Assembly: GCA_019096065.1 (NCBI GenBank)
Contig: JAGUCH010000005.1
Span: 5,022,001-5,086,000 of the forward strand
Source: Paracyclopina nana
Taxonomy: Eukaryota; Arthropoda; Copepoda; Cyclopoida; Cyclopettidae
Length of the DNA: 64,000 nucleotides
Reading direction: 5' to 3'
The position numbers were made by a program, and so were the translations under genes. The notes beneath the pieces are model-generated. The model was not told the DNA's origin, searched no databases, and saw nothing but the letters and a program-made list of their open reading frames with translations. Below are positions 6,960-43,529 of this stretch, piece by piece; position 1 is the first letter of the stretch, and every line of letters starts with the position of its first letter.

Positions 6960-7562
6960 AAGTCAAGTTATAAAATGTCCGACAAGCCAAGTTGCAAAAT
7001 GACCGACATCTACTGCCTTTTTTGCCCGACAGATTTGTCATAGTTGTAAAATGTCCGACAAATAGAGTGTTAAATGATCGACAGGTTTTGACAAGTTGCA
7101 AAATGTCCAACACGACCCAGTTGTAAAATGTCCGACACATACTTCAGTACGCATCTTAAGTTTTTTTATTTGTATAAAGTATATCAGCTTCTGGAAAAAA
7201 TTGTAGACAGTAAGATTAATTAAAAAAATTCCATGTAATTGTAGTTGAGTCAGCTCTTGCTCTAAATGCAATAATATTTTTAGCCCATACTAGGTTATGA
7301 AATAGGCAGCTAAAACATTTAATTGTTGTGCAGTCTTTAATAGGTAATGAACTTACAAAAATGTGTCGGTCATTTTGCAACTATACCAGTTGTGTCAGGC
7401 AAAACATGTACCTGTTGCCAATTTGTGTCGGTCATTTTGCAACTATACCAAATGTGTCGGGCAAAAAATGCACCTGTCGCCAAATTTGTGTCGGTCATTT
7501 TGCAACTATACCAAATGTGTCGGACATTTTGCAACATGGCGAAATGTGTCGGACAAAATGAT
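6960..7562. repeat. Two oppositely oriented clusters of a diverged short repeat
   Basis: The left cluster (about 6960-7140) has six or seven diverged copies of a unit like AGTTGCAAAATGTCCGACA. The right cluster (about 7362-7556) has about seven copies in the opposite orientation, built on TGTGTCGGTCATTTTGCAAC and alternating with a TGTCGGGCAAAA variant. About 220 bp of unrelated AT-rich DNA separates them. The short reading frames across the array are repeat translations, not genes. Confidence 0.8.
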
Positions 7563-7690
7563 GGAGCCCCTCATATGCTGCAACTGTAAAGAATTTAGAT
7601 TGAAAACTCACAGCAGCAGCTCTTCATATGACATATACGTATAATATACCAAGAATTTGCAGATGAAAATTCCTATTTGACTCCTTGCAG

Positions 7691-9154
7691 GTGCCATGGT
7701 CAAGGAGATCTGCCTACATGTTGATCTTGGCTTGCTACGTATCCTCAGTGCTCACTGAGCCCAACATTGGAGGTGGCGAGGGCACACCTGGTGGAGAGCA
7801 CAGCCATTTGGACGCTGATGACCAGGACTTCTCTGGCATCGTGGACTTTAGCAATGCAATTCCAGGCCCGGACGGATCATGGTGCATTACCAAGACCAAA
7901 TACGTGGACCACATGGTTCGCGACCAACTGAAAGAGTGCTGGCACCAAAATGTCAGCCAATGCCATGACACGTATGTCACCGAGTTTTTGCCCAGCCAAG
8001 AGCAGAAATGCGAGGAGACGTTTTGGAAGTCGTGCAAAATCGACTTCAAAGAGGCTCCGTACAATTACACGATGAAGCAATGTCACACTCCACTAGTGAA
8101 GGAATGCGACCCTCCCTCGTATAATCCGAGCCTGCAGGAGGCCAAAATCGTCTGCAAGACCTGGTTCGAGTCCGAATGCAACATCACCATCGTGGAGACG
8201 TCACCAGCCAAAGATGACATTCCTAACACGTGGTGTAGCAAGGTTCCGCGGAAAATTTGCGCGCCTGACAACTGCAGAATGGTGCCAGGGCCGGAGCAGT
8301 GCAACCAGAAAATGATGGTCTCCACCATTGAGCAGCCCTCGGAAATCTGTGATTTGCAGCCGCAGACGCATTGCCGATTGATCACGAGATTGGTGCCACA
8401 CCTCATTCAGAAGGAGGTGTGTCGGCTGGTGCCGAAGGAAATGTGCCATTTGGCACTCGCGAACCCTCACATGGTGAAGAAGCCCATGAGGTTGAGGTGG
8501 TGCACCAAAACGCCGCCAGAGGGCGCCTCCACGCCTCAATACAAACCGAGCTATCTCCCACCTCCTCCACAATCAGGGAACAATGGCAGATCTCCTCCTT
8601 CACCACCTGTGAGGTCATCCACACCTACGCCTACGTTCACACCTACCAGCTTCCAATTGCCACCTGAAATTGGAGGAGGACCCTCGTTTAGCTCTCCCAC
8701 TGGACGGCCTTCGTTGCAGTTCCAGAGGAGATCTCAATTGGAGCCAGTCTACGAGACCAAGTTCAAGCCCATTTTGCCAAGGAAGCCAAGTACAGCCGAG
8801 GTGCTCAAGCCTGAACGGCTTTCACAGGAGAATCCCAAAAATATCCTCATTGAGGATTTCTTCGTGCAAAACAGTGCTGAGGACTTGGAGCTCATGACCA
8901 AAGTACACCCACCACAACCACTGGTACATACTACCACCACTGAAGCTCCTCAAGAGGAAGAGGAGCCAGCAATTGATGCCAAAGAAGACACCGAGGTCAG
9001 CTCAGAGCCCATGGCCTTACTGCCAAAGCTTTTGAGGCCAAAGAAGCCATCTGTTAATATTCCATATCATGTTTCAATATCAGATGAGCTTTCAGAAGTG
9101 GACAGCTACCATCACATGTTTGGCTCGAATAATGGGGATGAATCTGTCCTTTAA
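7691..9154 (+). CDS. Secreted cysteine-rich protein, paralogue 1 (main exon)
   Basis: This protein has a hydrophobic signal segment (LILACYVSSVLT), then a block of about 250 residues with many regularly spaced Cys and motifs ECWHQNV, TYVTEF, VCKTWFES, PRKICAPD, HCRLI and VPKEMCHLALANPHM. A Pro-rich, then acidic tail follows. The same block occurs in the gene at 25 kb, so the two are paralogues. I recognise the Cys pattern as one recurring in arthropod secreted proteins of unknown role. The exon starts after TTGCAG, and the paralogue has an intron at the matching place, so a short upstream exon with the true start is expected. The first in-frame Met inside this exon is at 7718. Function unknown; extracellular location inferred from the signal segment and Cys content. 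Confidence 0.85.
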   Translation: MPWSRRSAYMLILACYVSSVLTEPNIGGGEGTPGGEHSHLDADDQDFSGIVDFSNAIPGPDGSWCITKTKYVDHMVRDQLKECWHQNVSQCHDTYVTEFLPSQEQKCEETFWKSCKIDFKEAPYNYTMKQCHTPLVKECDPPSYNPSLQEAKIVCKTWFESECNITIVETSPAKDDIPNTWCSKVPRKICAPDNCRMVPGPEQCNQKMMVSTIEQPSEICDLQPQTHCRLITRLVPHLIQKEVCRLVPKEMCHLALANPHMVKKPMRLRWCTKTPPEGASTPQYKPSYLPPPPQSGNNGRSPPSPPVRSSTPTPTFTPTSFQLPPEIGGGPSFSSPTGRPSLQFQRRSQLEPVYETKFKPILPRKPSTAEVLKPERLSQENPKNILIEDFFVQNSAEDLELMTKVHPPQPLVHTTTTEAPQEEEEPAIDAKEDTEVSSEPMALLPKLLRPKKPSVNIPYHVSISDELSEVDSYHHMFGSNNGDESVL

Positions 9155-20379: not shown

Positions 20380-22504
20380 TGCCTTCATTTTCTTCCATAA
20401 GCTTGCCTTAAATATAGTATCTGTATTTTGTCCCACTACATGTGTCGAGTTCTCCTTTTCCATTTCAGGCGTTTCCAGCGCCATCTGGCGGCGTCTGAAC
20501 CAAAGGCAGCAAGTCATTAGGTGCCAAGCTTGATCGCGAATCTCCTTGTTGCACAAGCAATACGCGTAAAAGTTGAAGGATGCAATGCTTATCTCCAGCA
20601 TGTTGGCAACAATTCTCAGCCGCTGCAATACAATACTTAGGCTTGCGGTTATTACGTAGGAAACTCAATGTATTTTGTGCATTACGCGCCGTTTTGCCAT
20701 AGCTATAGGCCTGTTGACACAAGACTTTTAAAAGCCCCTTTTGAGAGCACACTTTGAAAACATAATAATATGTATATTTTTGTTACTTATGTAATGAGCC
20801 AGATTGAATAAGGGCAACTTTTGTAATTAAAAGCAGACCATGAAAAAAATTGGTTTGGTCACCATTGAAGCCCGACTCATACAAGATTTAAAAGCGAGCA
20901 AGGGAAACCTAATTTAGAACGTACCTGAAAGGCTAAATGAGTTCTGTACTTTTCTCCATCGAGAATTCTCACGACCGAAGAGGGAATGTTGCAGACAGTG
21001 AACAAGAGAGTAATGACTGCGAGTATAACCATGACACTTTTTTCCTTGCTATGGATAATTGTCAGAGACAATCTTCGAGCTCGATTGCGCCTCGTCGTTG
21101 CGACCGCAACCTCAGCAGTCGACTTTGCAGGGTTTCGAGCAATACAATCATTGTCTGCATTTTGATCATCCGCAGGAGCTTGTTGGTGTAATTGCATCGT
21201 TTGGAAGTTCAACTGCTTTGAACTCCTTTTTGCCTCGTGCAGCGGTTCAAGGCTGCAGCTATCTTTTCTGCCAGATATGGCAAAAGGCCTGGAATACATT
21301 ACTGAAGCGTGTAATTACTCTGGAGCAGCTGTACTATGTATTATACTGTACCTGGGTGTAGCGGATACTTCCGAATGGCCTACTCTGATATTGGAGAAAA
21401 ACTTGGAAGATTTCGGATTGAGTTTGCTCGACGTTCGATGCACGAACCTCGAAGCCATCAACTTTTTGCGACGTCGTATGGATACATTGAACTGTCTAAT
21501 CATGGCTATATTGAGGAAATTGAGGATGACCGTCGGACAGAGGCGAGTCAAGAGTTCATTGATGATCAAATATGCCAACCAAATGGGAGAACTTGCGAGG
21601 CCTTTAATGGCCTGCTTCGTATACGAGCACTCAGCAGGACCTTCGACAAAAGTTAGATTGAGTTGAGTCACATTGGGAATCGTTTCCAGGCAAAGGCAGA
21701 GGAAGATGGCGGATCCATTCTCGGATTTTTCCTGTGGCCAGAACGCCATTGTACTATTGTTAAAGTCTTCCGCCGCTGCGGTGGTGGCCATTTTGTCGTA
21801 ATTTAGAACTGGAGTAAAACAATGCGTGGCTGTGACGCGTTCCGACCACAATCTCGGCAATTGGAGAATGAAACCGAAGAAAAACGAAAGAGCTACATCC
21901 ACCCAAGGATTCTTCATTTGCCTGTGCTTCTGGTATTTCGTGGGGTGACATATGGCAAAATACCTATGAAGCAGCACAAATATATAGCGGAAAAAGGCAG
22001 CAAAGTTGAATTTATGGCCTACCTGTCGAAAGTCATGCAAACAACGATGAAAACAGATGCTGCCAAAAATCCATTTGCTATGGGCTTTTCAAAGTGTACA
22101 CGGTAGTAAAATGCTACGTAATTTGGGTCCTCCACGCCTGTGGAATCTTCGTGATTGTGCAGAAGATTCGTCACAAACGATATGGCGAATGACAAGAAAC
22201 CCAGGTCAGCGAAGGACAGGCCTTTCAAATAGACATAGATTTTGGCTGAAAACTTGGAGTTGCTCAAAATGATGAGATTGGCCATAGTGCCAAAGAGTCC
22301 CAGGGTGAAGAGTACAGGAGAACACAGCTTGTAAGCCCTGTATTGGGCCAAAGCTATGGCCTCTTCCACTTCGGTAATGTTGTCATATATTAAGGCCATC
22401 CTCAGTTGAACTGATACATTCTGTAAATGTATCTCGTGAATGCGCAGTTGTAGCTCATATGCTATCTTTATTGTTATACTGCCTAAGCAATCTTTTTTTA
22501 GCAA
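20359..22504 (-). CDS. Class A peptide-type G-protein-coupled receptor
   Basis: Four exons in transcript order are 22504-22023, 21963-21352, 21288-20925 and 20622-20359, giving 573 residues in phase. Seven hydrophobic segments are visible. TM3 ends in DRY (split by the first intron) followed by FAICHP. TM6 contains VITLLFTVCNIPSS. TM7 has N-F-Y-A-Y in place of NPxxY, a form reminiscent of insect FMRFamide and myosuppressin receptors. The N-terminal part carries NIT and NVS glycosylation sequons, and ECL2 is long with several more. The tail is basic (CCLWFRRRQ). Start choice: the first Met is used, but a downstream Met (near 22399, MALIYDNIT) could be the real start. Ligand unknown. The last seven codons overlap the peroxidase stop region. 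Confidence 0.88.
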
Positions 22505-24957: not shown

Positions 24958-26109
24958 ATGATGGGACCATTACGCTTCAGAGTAAGAACTTGTAATTTTG
25001 ATTTACCTTGATCCACGACCGCAGCTTTACTTCGATTGTGAGACCACTACACAGAGAAAATTCCATACATATCCATGTTTAGGCATTCATTTTTTTCCAT
25101 ATCTTTGCAGGAGTTCTTTTTCCTTTTCCTGGCTGTGACTTGCCCACAATTGGCACGTGGAGATGTCCTGGCCCAAGGCTCACGGCCCAACTTCCCCAAT
25201 GACAGCGATGTCATCGATGAAGAGCCAAATGGAATCATCGATTTCAGCGAGGCCGTGCCCCAACCCGACGGCTCGCTTTGCATCACCAAGACCAAGTACA
25301 TCGAGAAGATGGAGAAGCAACCTGTGAACGAGTGCTGGCACCAAAACGTGACTGCGTGCCATGAAACGTATGTGACGGAATTTCGGCCCAACCAGGAGCA
25401 AGTTTGCGAGGAGAACTTTTGGAAAGCCTGCAAAATCACTTTCAAAGAAGTTGGCTACAATTACACGCTCAAGTCATGCGCGAAGCCTCTGATCAAGAAA
25501 TGCGAGGAGCCGAAGCCAACTTCGTATGGAGCCCCGCCCCCCAAAGAGCCCAAAGTCGTGTGCAAAACCTGGTTCGAGTCCGTCTGCAATACAACATATG
25601 CGCCCTCGCAGGGGGCAGCTCCGGGTGCGAGCCTCAAGCCTCAGACCTGGTGCCAGAAGGAGCCTCGCAAAATTTGCGCACCAGACTTTTGCGAAGTGGT
25701 CGAGGGGCCAGAGGAGTGCCATGACAAAACGCTGACATCTACCATTGTCAAGCCAGAGGAAGTCTGTGACCTCCAGCCCTCAACGCACTGTCGACTCGTG
25801 ACCAATTTGGTGCCACACCTGGAGTCCCAAACGGTCTGCAAGGAGATCCCCAAGGAAGTGTGCCATTTGAGGCTGGCCAACCCTCATATGGTGAAAAAAC
25901 CAGTGACTCTGAAATGGTGCACCAAGCCCAAAAAGGCCGACGCTCCTCCAAGCTACCTGCCCCCGCCCAGGCCCTCCTATGAACCCGTGGCCCAGCCCCC
26001 AGTGTATAAGGCCCAACCTGCAGCCCCTGGAAGCCCCGTGCCCACATCCTCGCCTGTTTATTTCAAGCCCGTGCAGAGCAACAGCGGAGGACGTAGAAAT
26101 CGATACTGA
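24958..26109 (+). CDS. Secreted cysteine-rich protein, paralogue 2
   Basis: Two exons (24958-24981, 25111-26109) give 340 residues. The short first exon encodes MMGPLRFR. Joined in phase to EFFFLFLAVTCPQLARG, it makes a standard signal peptide; donor AGA|GTAAGA and acceptor TTTGCAG are both good. The Cys-rich block repeats that of the 7.7 kb gene almost motif for motif (ECWHQNV, TYVTEF, VCKTWFES, RKICAPD, ANPHMVKKP). Its Pro-rich tail is shorter and lacks the acidic extension. An AATAAA lies about 110 bases after the stop. Function unknown; a secreted structural or matrix role is only inference. Confidence 0.9.
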
Positions 26110-39922: not shown

Positions 39923-40690
39923 ATGAGCCCCAGCAAAACAGCTTTAGGTAAGCTCTTAGTTCTTTGCTTAAAAAATCACCTTTTCATTCCAATTTTTTAT
40001 TTTTAGGAACTTTTTGGGTCTTGGCTTTCCTCGTCGTCTCTTCGTATGCCATAGAAGACCTCAATGAGCCAAAAGAGGTAAATATCTATGAATGCCAAAG
40101 TTATACATAGTAGCTCTCAAAACTTGCTTAATCGCTAGGATAAGAGAGCGAATGAGTTTGACCGCATTTTGCGCTCGTCGGAATTTGATCGGATTCTGCG
40201 GAGCGGTGAGCCGTCAAGCTTCTCCAGGATCCTAAGATCGCCTGAAATGGACGAATCTTACGAAGAACAAGATGCAGATAAACGCTCGGCTCCTCGCTCA
40301 TTTTCACGCATTTTGCGATCTGGCCCCAACTCCTTTTCGCGTATCCTGAGGAGCACTTTTTCGAGAATCCTGAAGAGAGGTGGCGGGAGTCCCTCGACGT
40401 TCTCGAGGATCTTGAAAAAGCAAAGCCCCTCCTCATTCTCCCGAATCTTACGAGACCCTGACACCTTCTCTCGGATTTTGAGGTCATCGTCTTACCCTAG
40501 CAGCCATCAGACATATGAAAGGAGCATGAGAGATCAGCATTTTTCTCGCATCCTCAAAAAGAGCGATCCGATGTCGACTCAAGACGAATTCTATGAAGAA
40601 GGTCCCTATGAAGAAGAAGGATATGAGAGACCAGTTCAAGATTTCAGCAGATTTCTAAGGAGTGCCAGCTTTTCCAGAATTCTCAGATAA
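39923..40690 (+). CDS. Secreted precursor with twelve FSRILR-type repeats (putative neuropeptide)
   Basis: Three coding exons (39923-39947, 40007-40077, 40139-40690) give 215 residues. A signal peptide (about 1-23, FWVLAFLVVSSYA) is followed by DKR, a classical cleavage site, then copies of a short motif: FDRILR twice, FSRILR or FSRILK nine times and FSRFLR once. Many are preceded by Ser/Thr and followed by Ser. Acidic spacers (ESYEEQDADKR and EFYEEGPYEEEGYER) separate the repeat groups, as in neuropeptide precursors. Dibasic sites (KR, KK) occur in several spacers, but most repeats end in a single Arg without Gly, so products would mostly not be amidated. Codons differ from copy to copy. I do not recognise the family. 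A distant resemblance to orcokinins (F-D-x-I-x-R-S) is possible. The N-terminal organisation and TATA promoter support a real, highly expressed secreted product. Confidence 0.85.
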
Positions 40691-41432: not shown

Positions 41433-43529
41433 ATGATTCGCTCCTTGTTAGCGTGTAACCGGTCGGTGGCCTTTCGAGGCTCCAATTTTCAGCTGAACTC
41501 GTTACAAAAGGCTGACAAGCTTACTTTTGAGCGGTGTTGTGCTAGCCTTTCTGCCAGTGAAAGAAGTCAAGAAGATTCGGCCAACTTGAATGACTTTCTC
41601 AACAGGTACCAAAAGATGGCCAGAATCAGGCCTTTTGATGCTTGCAGGCTTATTATCAAGATGGCTGAGCATCGGAAAGAACCAGGCTCACATAGTGAAC
41701 TTTATGAGAAGATAAAAACAGATGCAGAGGTATCTGAGCCAAAAATTCTTGTGAAAGCTGTCAAAGCTCTGGAGCAGTCACAGTGCGAAGAGGTGGAGAC
41801 CAAAATGATTGTAAGCCTTGTAGTAGAGGAGATTTTTCAATTTTTTCATTGCCCTATTTAGATTTCAGCTCTGAAGTCACTGCATTCATTGGGAGTGCCC
41901 AATCACATGTTCATGGTCAAGAATCTGGAAAATGCATTGACATGGCGCTGTCGAACTTGCAACATCAAAGAAATGCCAGTTATGCTGACGTTTGCGCTAA
42001 AGCGTCGCGGATACGGGGAAACTTCGGAGAAATTCTACCAAGAGGTGATTCAAACACTCGAGCGCAGATGGGTCGAAATTGAGGATCCAGAGCTGATTGG
42101 CACCTTGTTCCGCTACTCGAATTTGTTCAAGGTTAAGTTCATTGCCAAGTTAGAGGATCGAATGATTGAAAAGGCCGAGGGAATGTCCACTGAAGCCATG
42201 ATCATCGTAAGCTCTATGTAAGGCCATTTTGAGCCTATTGTTAGCCGACTTTCCTATTTTCAGTTGCTCAAAACTTTGGCTCAGAGCAGAAGGCGCACAG
42301 TTCCGTTGATAAAAGCCTTGGTGTTCCACCTCACTCGCAAGACTGATTTGAACGACATCAAACTCGTCTCGGATTGTCTATACGCTTCTTCGAACTTGGC
42401 CATCAAGGATCCGGATTTCCTTGAGTCTCTATGCAGCAAGTGTGAAGCCATTTTCTTGTCGCTGGAGGCAACGCATCTCTCTGATGCAGTTGTCCGATCG
42501 ATTATCACATCGATTGGTCAATTGGGCATATATCACAGTCGAGCTCTCAATTCGATAAGTGCTTGGTACTCTCAGAGATTGCAGCAAGAGCCACCACTGG
42601 GTTGCAAAGATTTGGCTGCATTTGTCCTTACAACCGGATCAATCAATTTTGTTCCCGACAATTCAGAGCCTATCTTCAAGGTAGACCAGAAAATTTACTT
42701 AAAAGCCGGAGAATGAAAAATTCATTTTTAGGCTGCTTTGGAGCAACTCAGCTCTTTATCGGTTGGCGATAGCATACTTTGGCTGAACATCGTATGGAGC
42801 CTGGCTGTTTTAGGAAAAGCTGAACCTCGCCATTTTGAGTCGGTGCTCACTTCCGATTATGTGCAAAATATGACAGGTAATATTCAGATCGTGTCAGTAG
42901 CTTTTGCAACGTTGTTATTCTTCCCCACAGCTTTGGAAGACCCACGGACGGAAAGCTGCAAGCAGAAGCTGTTGAATGTCAATGCTGCTGCCATGTTTCT
43001 CAACAAAGACTACAAAGGCTCGACAATTGACACTGTGAACAATTCAATCATCTCCAGCTACAAGCCATCGCAATCAGCTAGTCGTATTAATTTAAGCAAA
43101 ACTGTTTTCGACTCCTTCCATGCTTTGGCATCACCTCCGAATTTCCTCCTGAAGAATATCAACACGCAAATGGGATTCCTTCTGGATGCTGAAGCTGTGT
43201 TTGAAGTGGCAACCGCCAAGCCGATCGGGCCTATTTTGGACTATTCAGAATTAGGTCGATTAGCGCTATCGCAAGACTCGTTACCATCGCCGGTCAAAGA
43301 GGTGCCCAAAGGCTCAAAGAAGGTTGGTGTTATGATATTGGCATTCCACGATTGTCCCATTGGAACCTATACCCACCTCAGTGGAGCTGTGTCATTGCAA
43401 AAAAAGTTGCTTGAAGCGAGGGGATACAATGTGATGTTCATTAGGCACGATGAATTCGGACAGAATCGGAACAAGTTGCAGCAAGTGAAGCTGTTAGAAT
43501 CAAAGTTGCGCAATTTCCTTAAACAATAA
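41433..43529 (+). CDS. FAST kinase domain-containing protein (mitochondrial RNA binding, RAP domain)
   Basis: Five exons (41433-41810, 41862-42206, 42264-42680, 42732-42876, 42931-43529) give 627 residues. The N-terminus (MIRSLLACNRSVAF) is basic and lacks acidic residues, as expected for a mitochondrial targeting peptide. The body is helical-repeat-like with a FAST-type segment (LWLNIVWSLAVLG). The C-terminal 70 residues (from about 550) form a RAP domain (GVMILAFHDCP, GYNVMFIRHDEF). Length and layout fit the FASTKD4/TBRG4 type, which stabilise or process mitochondrial transcripts. Which FASTKD member it is cannot be settled by eye. The last intron is only 54 bp, a multiple of three, and has no in-frame stop, so an unspliced form would remain in frame. 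Confidence 0.88.

Follow-up and report, generated by a model that had tools for sequence, protein, structure and literature searches.

Proctolin and the orcokinins are receptor ligands that are not amidated, and both share features with the precursor described here. Orcokinin and pedal peptide precursors likewise contain several copies of an unamidated peptide, and a resemblance of the type FD.I..S is seen in the first two copies of our precursor. However, the latter lacks NFDEIDRSGF, its peptides probably end at FSRIL, and their release is predicted to occur mainly at a single Arg. Proctolin is also short and unamidated and contains Arg and Leu, but its sequence is different, and its precursor carries one copy, in contrast to 3 to 14 copies of the strict core F-x-R-I-[LM] in each of 63 complete-looking relatives of the FSRIL precursor. 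The PxFVRIamides of molluscs and annelids, of which we know no arthropod member, have the string S-S-F-x-R-I in common with FSRIL peptides, but they carry an amide and have no Leu at the C-terminus. FxPRLamide pyrokinins have a similar F-S-x-R-x-L look, whereas FSRIL peptides contain no Pro and none of the cores in 111 related proteins is followed by an amidation Gly.

The DNA analyzed was a stretch of 64,000 nucleotides of the Paracyclopina nana genome (C5:5022001-5086000), called the window below; genome-wide searches covered 92 Mb in 10 contigs. Spliced translation of positions 39923-40690 on the plus strand predicted a three-exon gene for a secretory precursor of 215 residues with exactly twelve copies of F[SD]R[IF]L[RK], in agreement with the coordinates and copy number given in the initial annotation of this locus. 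The splice sites of the two GT-AG introns were taken from the sequence, and the predicted signal peptide is joined to the repeats only once both introns are removed (Table 1). The N-terminus of the precursor is hydrophobic and, judged by eye, represents a signal peptide (MSPSKTALGTFWVLAFLVVSSYA) that is likely cut after SSYA, the codon ending at 40050. It is followed by a short acidic stretch, a KR site, and then the twelve copies with variable, partly acidic spacers between them. The previously noted signal peptide (by the same visual criterion), dibasic sites and acidic spacers were all present in the translation.

Table 1. Predicted features of the FSRIL precursor gene (window positions).
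Feature	Position	Strand	Basis
Exon 1, ATG start and N-terminal portion of the signal peptide	39923..39947	+	in-frame ATG, GT donor at 39948
Intron 1, 59 nt, GTAAGC...TTTTAG	39948..40006	+	read from sequence
Exon 2, remaining signal peptide and acidic spacer IEDLNEPKE	40007..40077	+	spliced translation
Intron 2, 61 nt, GTAAAT...CGCTAG	40078..40138	+	read from sequence
Exon 3, all 12 copies and acidic spacers, stop codon 40688-40690	40139..40690	+	spliced translation
Dibasic KR preceding copy 1	40142..40147	+	translation
Copy 1, FDRIL-R	40157..40174	+	translation
Copy 2, FDRIL-R	40184..40201	+	translation
Copy 3, FSRIL-R	40220..40237	+	translation
Dibasic KR closing acidic spacer SPEMDESYEEQDAD	40280..40285	+	translation
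Copy 4, FSRIL-R	40301..40318	+	translation
Copy 5, FSRIL-R	40334..40351	+	translation
Copy 6, FSRIL-K, then R (KR site)	40358..40375	+	translation
Copy 7, FSRIL-K, then K (KK site)	40400..40417	+	translation
Copy 8, FSRIL-R	40436..40453	+	translation
Copy 9, FSRIL-R	40466..40483	+	translation
Copy 10, FSRIL-K, then K (KK site)	40541..40558	+	translation
Copy 11, FSRFL-R	40643..40660	+	translation
Copy 12, FSRIL-R, stop codon immediately after	40670..40687	+	translation

When the part of the precursor after the signal peptide was shuffled 20,000 times, 22 shuffled sequences contained one copy of the motif and none contained more. The DNA of the twelve copies was on average only 62% identical (range 39-83%), and differences were mostly at synonymous sites, with a pS of 1.03 (saturated) versus a pN of 0.16 (pN/pS 0.16). 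Six codons were used for Arg at position 3, and five for Leu at position 5. These values indicate that the protein and not the DNA is conserved, as had been suggested on the basis of copies with different codons (TTTGACCGCATTTTGCGC at 40157 and TTCTCCAGGATCCTAAGA at 40220, both confirmed).

The core was followed by a single Arg in eight of the twelve copies, by KR or KK in three, and by Arg and the stop codon in the last, so that a predicted convertase-type basic site follows 11 of the 12 cores. Gly was not found directly after any of them. The earlier statement that most copies end at a single Arg without an amidation Gly was thus correct. The added comment that this would be unusual for receptor ligands holds less well, as the unamidated proctolin and orcokinins suggest that a free C-terminus is not so odd in such a ligand.

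Relatives were sought in two protein searches. The window protein as single query identified at least 80 related proteins at E <= 1, and a profile built from 17 of these matches at least 109 at E <= 0.01; pooling gave at least 111 distinct proteins, most of them with the layout of the window precursor. Both searches scored only about 8000 candidates sharing most words, and the family counts, which include close relatives and machine-predicted proteins, are therefore lower bounds. When the relatives were clustered together with the window protein by single linkage at 70% identity, at least 47 clusters were obtained. Species names were available for three relatives, all from copepods, and lacking for the other 108. 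The named proteins were from Tigriopus californicus (P0057, LOC131877555, "uncharacterized"), Lepeophtheirus salmonis (P0081, a uniref entry, uncharacterized) and Caligus rogercresseyi (P0090, "uncharacterized, partial"), and thus from at least two copepod orders, Harpacticoida and Siphonostomatoida. None of the at least 111 matches was named as a non-copepod protein, and hence no characterized neuropeptide supports the proposed role by homology. Four relatives had a source label without species, namely "hypothetical protein" in three cases and "histone H3/H4" in one, the latter not borne out by the protein's sequence. Relatives without any label were nearly all from short contigs. The source merc is presumably assembled from marine metatranscriptomes, which would speak for transcription of the relatives found there.

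Across all 111 proteins, fragments included, the number of strict copies ranged from 0 to 14. Among the named relatives it was 6 for P0057, 5 for P0081 and 1 for the partial P0090, and with a looser pattern 7, 8 and 6, respectively. A hydrophobic stretch of 11 residues ahead of the first copy was present in 72 of the 79 relatives that were eligible for this check, i.e. that began with M and had at least 30 residues before the first copy. The protein without any strict copy was P0103 (365 aa, from an ena contig of 2768 bases, E 3e-6 in the profile search), which has many repeats of the types HRMMRS, FDRLMRS and YDRLAR and no terminal copy. It was counted among the 111, but is a doubtful member of the family and possibly represents a branch of FxRxx precursors.

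In an alignment with seven chosen relatives, the cores of the window protein were identical at 57/60, 54/60, 48/60, 49/60, 45/57, 40/57 and 40/45 positions, and the remaining protein past the signal peptide at 52/111, 40/111, 40/97, 44/100, 34/86, 34/75 and 29/81 positions. The resulting contrast between cores (70-95% identity over aligned positions) and spacers (36-47%) is somewhat flattered, because the aligner favors matching cores. Spacers also varied in length and sequence among the relatives, and the context R-x-[ML]-R-x-Q-[HQ]-FSRILK of copy 10 was common to several of them.

The relatives also point to the end of the mature peptide. All 656 internal strict copies in the 111 proteins were followed by R or K (single R in 554 cases, two basic residues in 101, single K in one). 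In 88 of the 111 proteins, a last copy identified with a looser pattern lay no more than three residues from the C-terminus; nothing came after it in 79 of these, R in five, RR in two, and other residues in two. No terminal copy was present in the other 23, many of which look like fragments or wrong models. On the level of clusters, 28 of 47 had a member whose C-terminus coincides with the end of the core, and seven, including the window's own, ended in R or RR after the last copy. The 12 clusters without such an end (hand count) included apparent fragments or wrong gene models, and also Lepeophtheirus P0081, which lacks a terminal copy and yet is not obviously a fragment or wrong model. Since a terminal copy needs no cut, its end is likely the desired one, and we conclude that the mature unit, rather than being FSRILR, probably has the form x-FSRIL and a free C-terminal acid.

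Since Arg was itself part of the pattern used for terminal copies, a second pattern that made no use of Arg, with [IVL][LFMQ] as the last two residues, was applied. It selected 81 proteins, and 79 of these had Arg as the third residue from the end. The tails of the two exceptions, YTEVL and SSDVQ, were not copy-like. Retention of Arg in terminal copies, where no cut follows, suggests that this residue matters in the peptide itself, and that it is probably wanted there beyond its use in cleavage. The minimal furin-type motif is R-x-x-R, and an internal R-I-L-R would qualify as such a site. This would account for the release of peptides where only one Arg follows the core. Cleavage at a single Arg is less certain than at a dibasic pair. 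The layout suggests economy, with one Arg serving both the mature peptide and its own release site.

Taken together, a multi-copy secreted peptide precursor, as originally annotated, was the best reading of the locus, supported by the 111 related sequences. We consider it likely that the gene specifies a copepod prepropeptide and that its cleavage yields about twelve peptides with F[S/D]R[I/F]L at the C-terminus, which act as neuropeptides or hormones. The gene structure, the repeats and their conservation, the family, and the C-terminal pattern are features of the sequences, and from these we infer that the precursor is cleaved, that the peptides are released from neural or endocrine cells, and that they have a receptor. 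The precursor would enter the regulated secretory pathway and lose its signal peptide. A convertase of the furin/PC type would then cut after R-I-L-R, with the core Arg as P4 of R-x-x-R, or after KR or KK, and a carboxypeptidase would trim the trailing Arg or Lys. This would set free, together with the acidic spacers, about twelve peptides with the common end and a free C-terminus, eleven of them with predicted lengths of 7-12 residues and one longer if its spacer stays uncut. The released peptides would act as neuropeptides or peptide hormones, most likely through a class A GPCR recognizing the FSRIL end that they share.

The same processed peptides might instead act outside the nervous system, as exocrine, reproductive or epidermal signals, or as antimicrobials in haemolymph or gut. 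The core places Arg beside bulky hydrophobic residues, and multi-copy antimicrobial precursors exist. However, the net charge of the eleven short predicted peptides (-1 to +2) and that of the twelfth (32 aa, -8) is low for antimicrobials. Moreover, the C-terminal register is conserved in 28 of 47 clusters, or in 35 when a final R or RR is tolerated. Such conservation, with variable parts ahead of the core, is as expected of receptor ligands, and we regard a non-neural role as unlikely. Repeats and a signal peptide alone would also fit a repetitive secreted protein with a structural or adhesive function that stays intact. We consider this very improbable, given the basic residue after every internal core, its absence after the last core in 79 of 88 proteins, the variable spacers, and the lack of a Pfam family above cut-off for the precursor.

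An orcokinin relationship had been left open in the initial annotation. In favor of a diverged orcokinin or pedal peptide precursor (F-D-x-I-x-R-S), orcokinins lack an amide, and copies 1 and 2 read FDRILRS, which is loosely similar to FDEIDRS. The genome, however, has a distinct orcokinin gene on contig C7 (locus L012, at about 2.54 Mb), with orcokinin-A repeats such as NFDEIDRSGFNNFVKK and NFDEIDRSGFNNF on the minus strand of L012 at 1372-1698, so that the FSRIL gene is not the orcokinin gene of this genome. Furthermore, the NFDEIDRSGF-type core was absent from the 215-residue window protein, the E-I-D-R-S-G-F part occurs in none of its copies, and the mature FSRIL peptide would end where an orcokinin continues. 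We therefore rejected orcokinin membership, and consider even a diverged precursor of this type extremely improbable. On the same strand of L012, about 1 kb upstream of the orcokinin-A repeats, four LDSIGGGNILR repeats were found within 2756-2980, which we take to be orcokinin-B-like; they likewise end in IL-R.

Pyrokinins, FMRFamide-like peptides and other amidated families were rejected as well, since no core is followed by Gly in either the 111 proteins or the window protein. A pyrokinin-type search of the genome resulted in 9 matches, of which the two best were inspected. The best, L014, was on the strand opposite to an open frame whose predicted product is acidic and repetitive. The second, L015, turned out to be an EDRF-G-KR precursor instead: positions 1309-1731 (C1, about 2.09 Mb) encode a multi-copy precursor of the amidated type with about eight repeats of GDEDRF-G-KR or EDRYGKR. 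The string GDEDRFGKR was not found in the literature searched.

Pfam had no family above cut-off for the window precursor or four relatives, NCBIfam none for the four relatives, and the PDB nothing above cut-off for the 17-member profile. A DUF3874 match of the window protein (E 6e-4, 20.5 bits versus a cut-off of 28.3) and a ribosomal L4 domain match of P0103 (E 1.4e-4, 22.3 bits versus 27) were regarded as fortuitous. Scanning the whole genome with a degenerate DNA pattern was of little use, with 238 matches versus 182 for the reversed control.

A genome search with the FSRIL protein recovered two exons of its own gene and, apart from these, a single weak match on contig C2 (E 0.63). This match is part of a precursor of 141 aa with one intron of 56 nt (L011 1364-1845, C2:13967156-13967637), a signal peptide by eye (MRGVLSIFLLCLLGIHFIAA), and eight copies, HFLRSLK, HFMRALR, HFLRALR, DLQRILR, EFNRGLR, HFLRSLR, DFMRMVR and HFLRSLR. 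Among 20,000 shuffles, 1,002 had one and 14 had two matches to [FL]xRx[LV][RK], a pattern chosen after the copies had been seen, and none had more. Profile comparison with the FSRIL alignment gave a probability of 95% over only 32 columns with 22% identity, which for repeats this simple is no proof of common descent. Unlike most FSRIL precursors, the C2 precursor does not end in a copy. A genome search with it identified no further locus, and matches to FLRSLR in the literature searched were unrelated by title. The C2 gene and the FSRIL gene may be distant sisters. Tentatively, and with doubt slightly outweighing confidence, we suggest that copepods have a peptide signaling system of their own, an FxRxL superfamily to which at least two precursors of this genome belong (FSRIL on C5 and the HFLRSL type on C2), with unamidated peptides, a core that would be both ligand end and R-x-x-R convertase site, and presumably a lineage-specific receptor group.

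The label "undescribed" held within the literature searched, where no description of an FSRIL-type motif as a peptide was found; an earlier one is possible in the work of Christie from 2014, which is said to deal with the Tigriopus and Lepeophtheirus peptidomes. Matches to the string FSRIL were unrelated according to titles and the beginnings of abstracts, and mostly concerned Sri Lanka ("of Sri L..."). The strings FSRILR, SRILRS, SRILRG, FDRILR, SRILKR, FDRLMR and HRMMRS were absent from the literature searched, as were the record names of three FSRIL relatives and one neighbor-gene relative, and no title on an FSRIL peptide was among the matches listed for copepod neuropeptides. FSRIL is a conserved and apparently unnamed peptide family with a plausible processing logic. 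Copepods, to which the salmon lice belong, rank among the most abundant animals, and a seemingly unnamed family in at least two of their orders would provide an orphan ligand for orphan receptors and an entry point into their physiology. In male Oithona nana, genes for neuropeptide maturation and receptors, including seven FMRF amide receptors, were reported as upregulated (PMC8301441), suggesting that copepods offer receptors to test.

The window also contains, about 17 kb away from the FSRIL precursor, a class A GPCR-like gene that comprises at least two open frames (21315-22504, minus strand). Its 7tm_1 matches (E 2.6e-6 and 0.006) were both below the Pfam cut-off, and when one of its exons was compared with the PDB, the class A matches were all weak (best E 0.11). 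We considered it as a partner of the FSRIL peptides, but proximity alone speaks for a link. Two Cys-rich, probably secreted proteins without Pfam match (7685-9154 and 25075-26109) are alike by eye. The second had 109 relatives at E <= 1e-10, of which the five entries with a species name were all from copepods: two from Tigriopus californicus with identities of 64% and 54%, one from Eurytemora carolleeae with 60%, and two from Lepeophtheirus salmonis with 52% and 38%. Another entry, labeled TCALIF, looks like Tigriopus. These matches point to a copepod as the most likely host of the window. Directly downstream of the FSRIL precursor lies a gene at 41433-43529, whose last open frame (42738-43529) is FAST kinase-like, with FAST_1 just above the Pfam cut-off and FAST_2 and RAP below theirs. 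Finally, positions 7359-7555 form a tandem repeat array with a period of 62 and a 29-base substructure.
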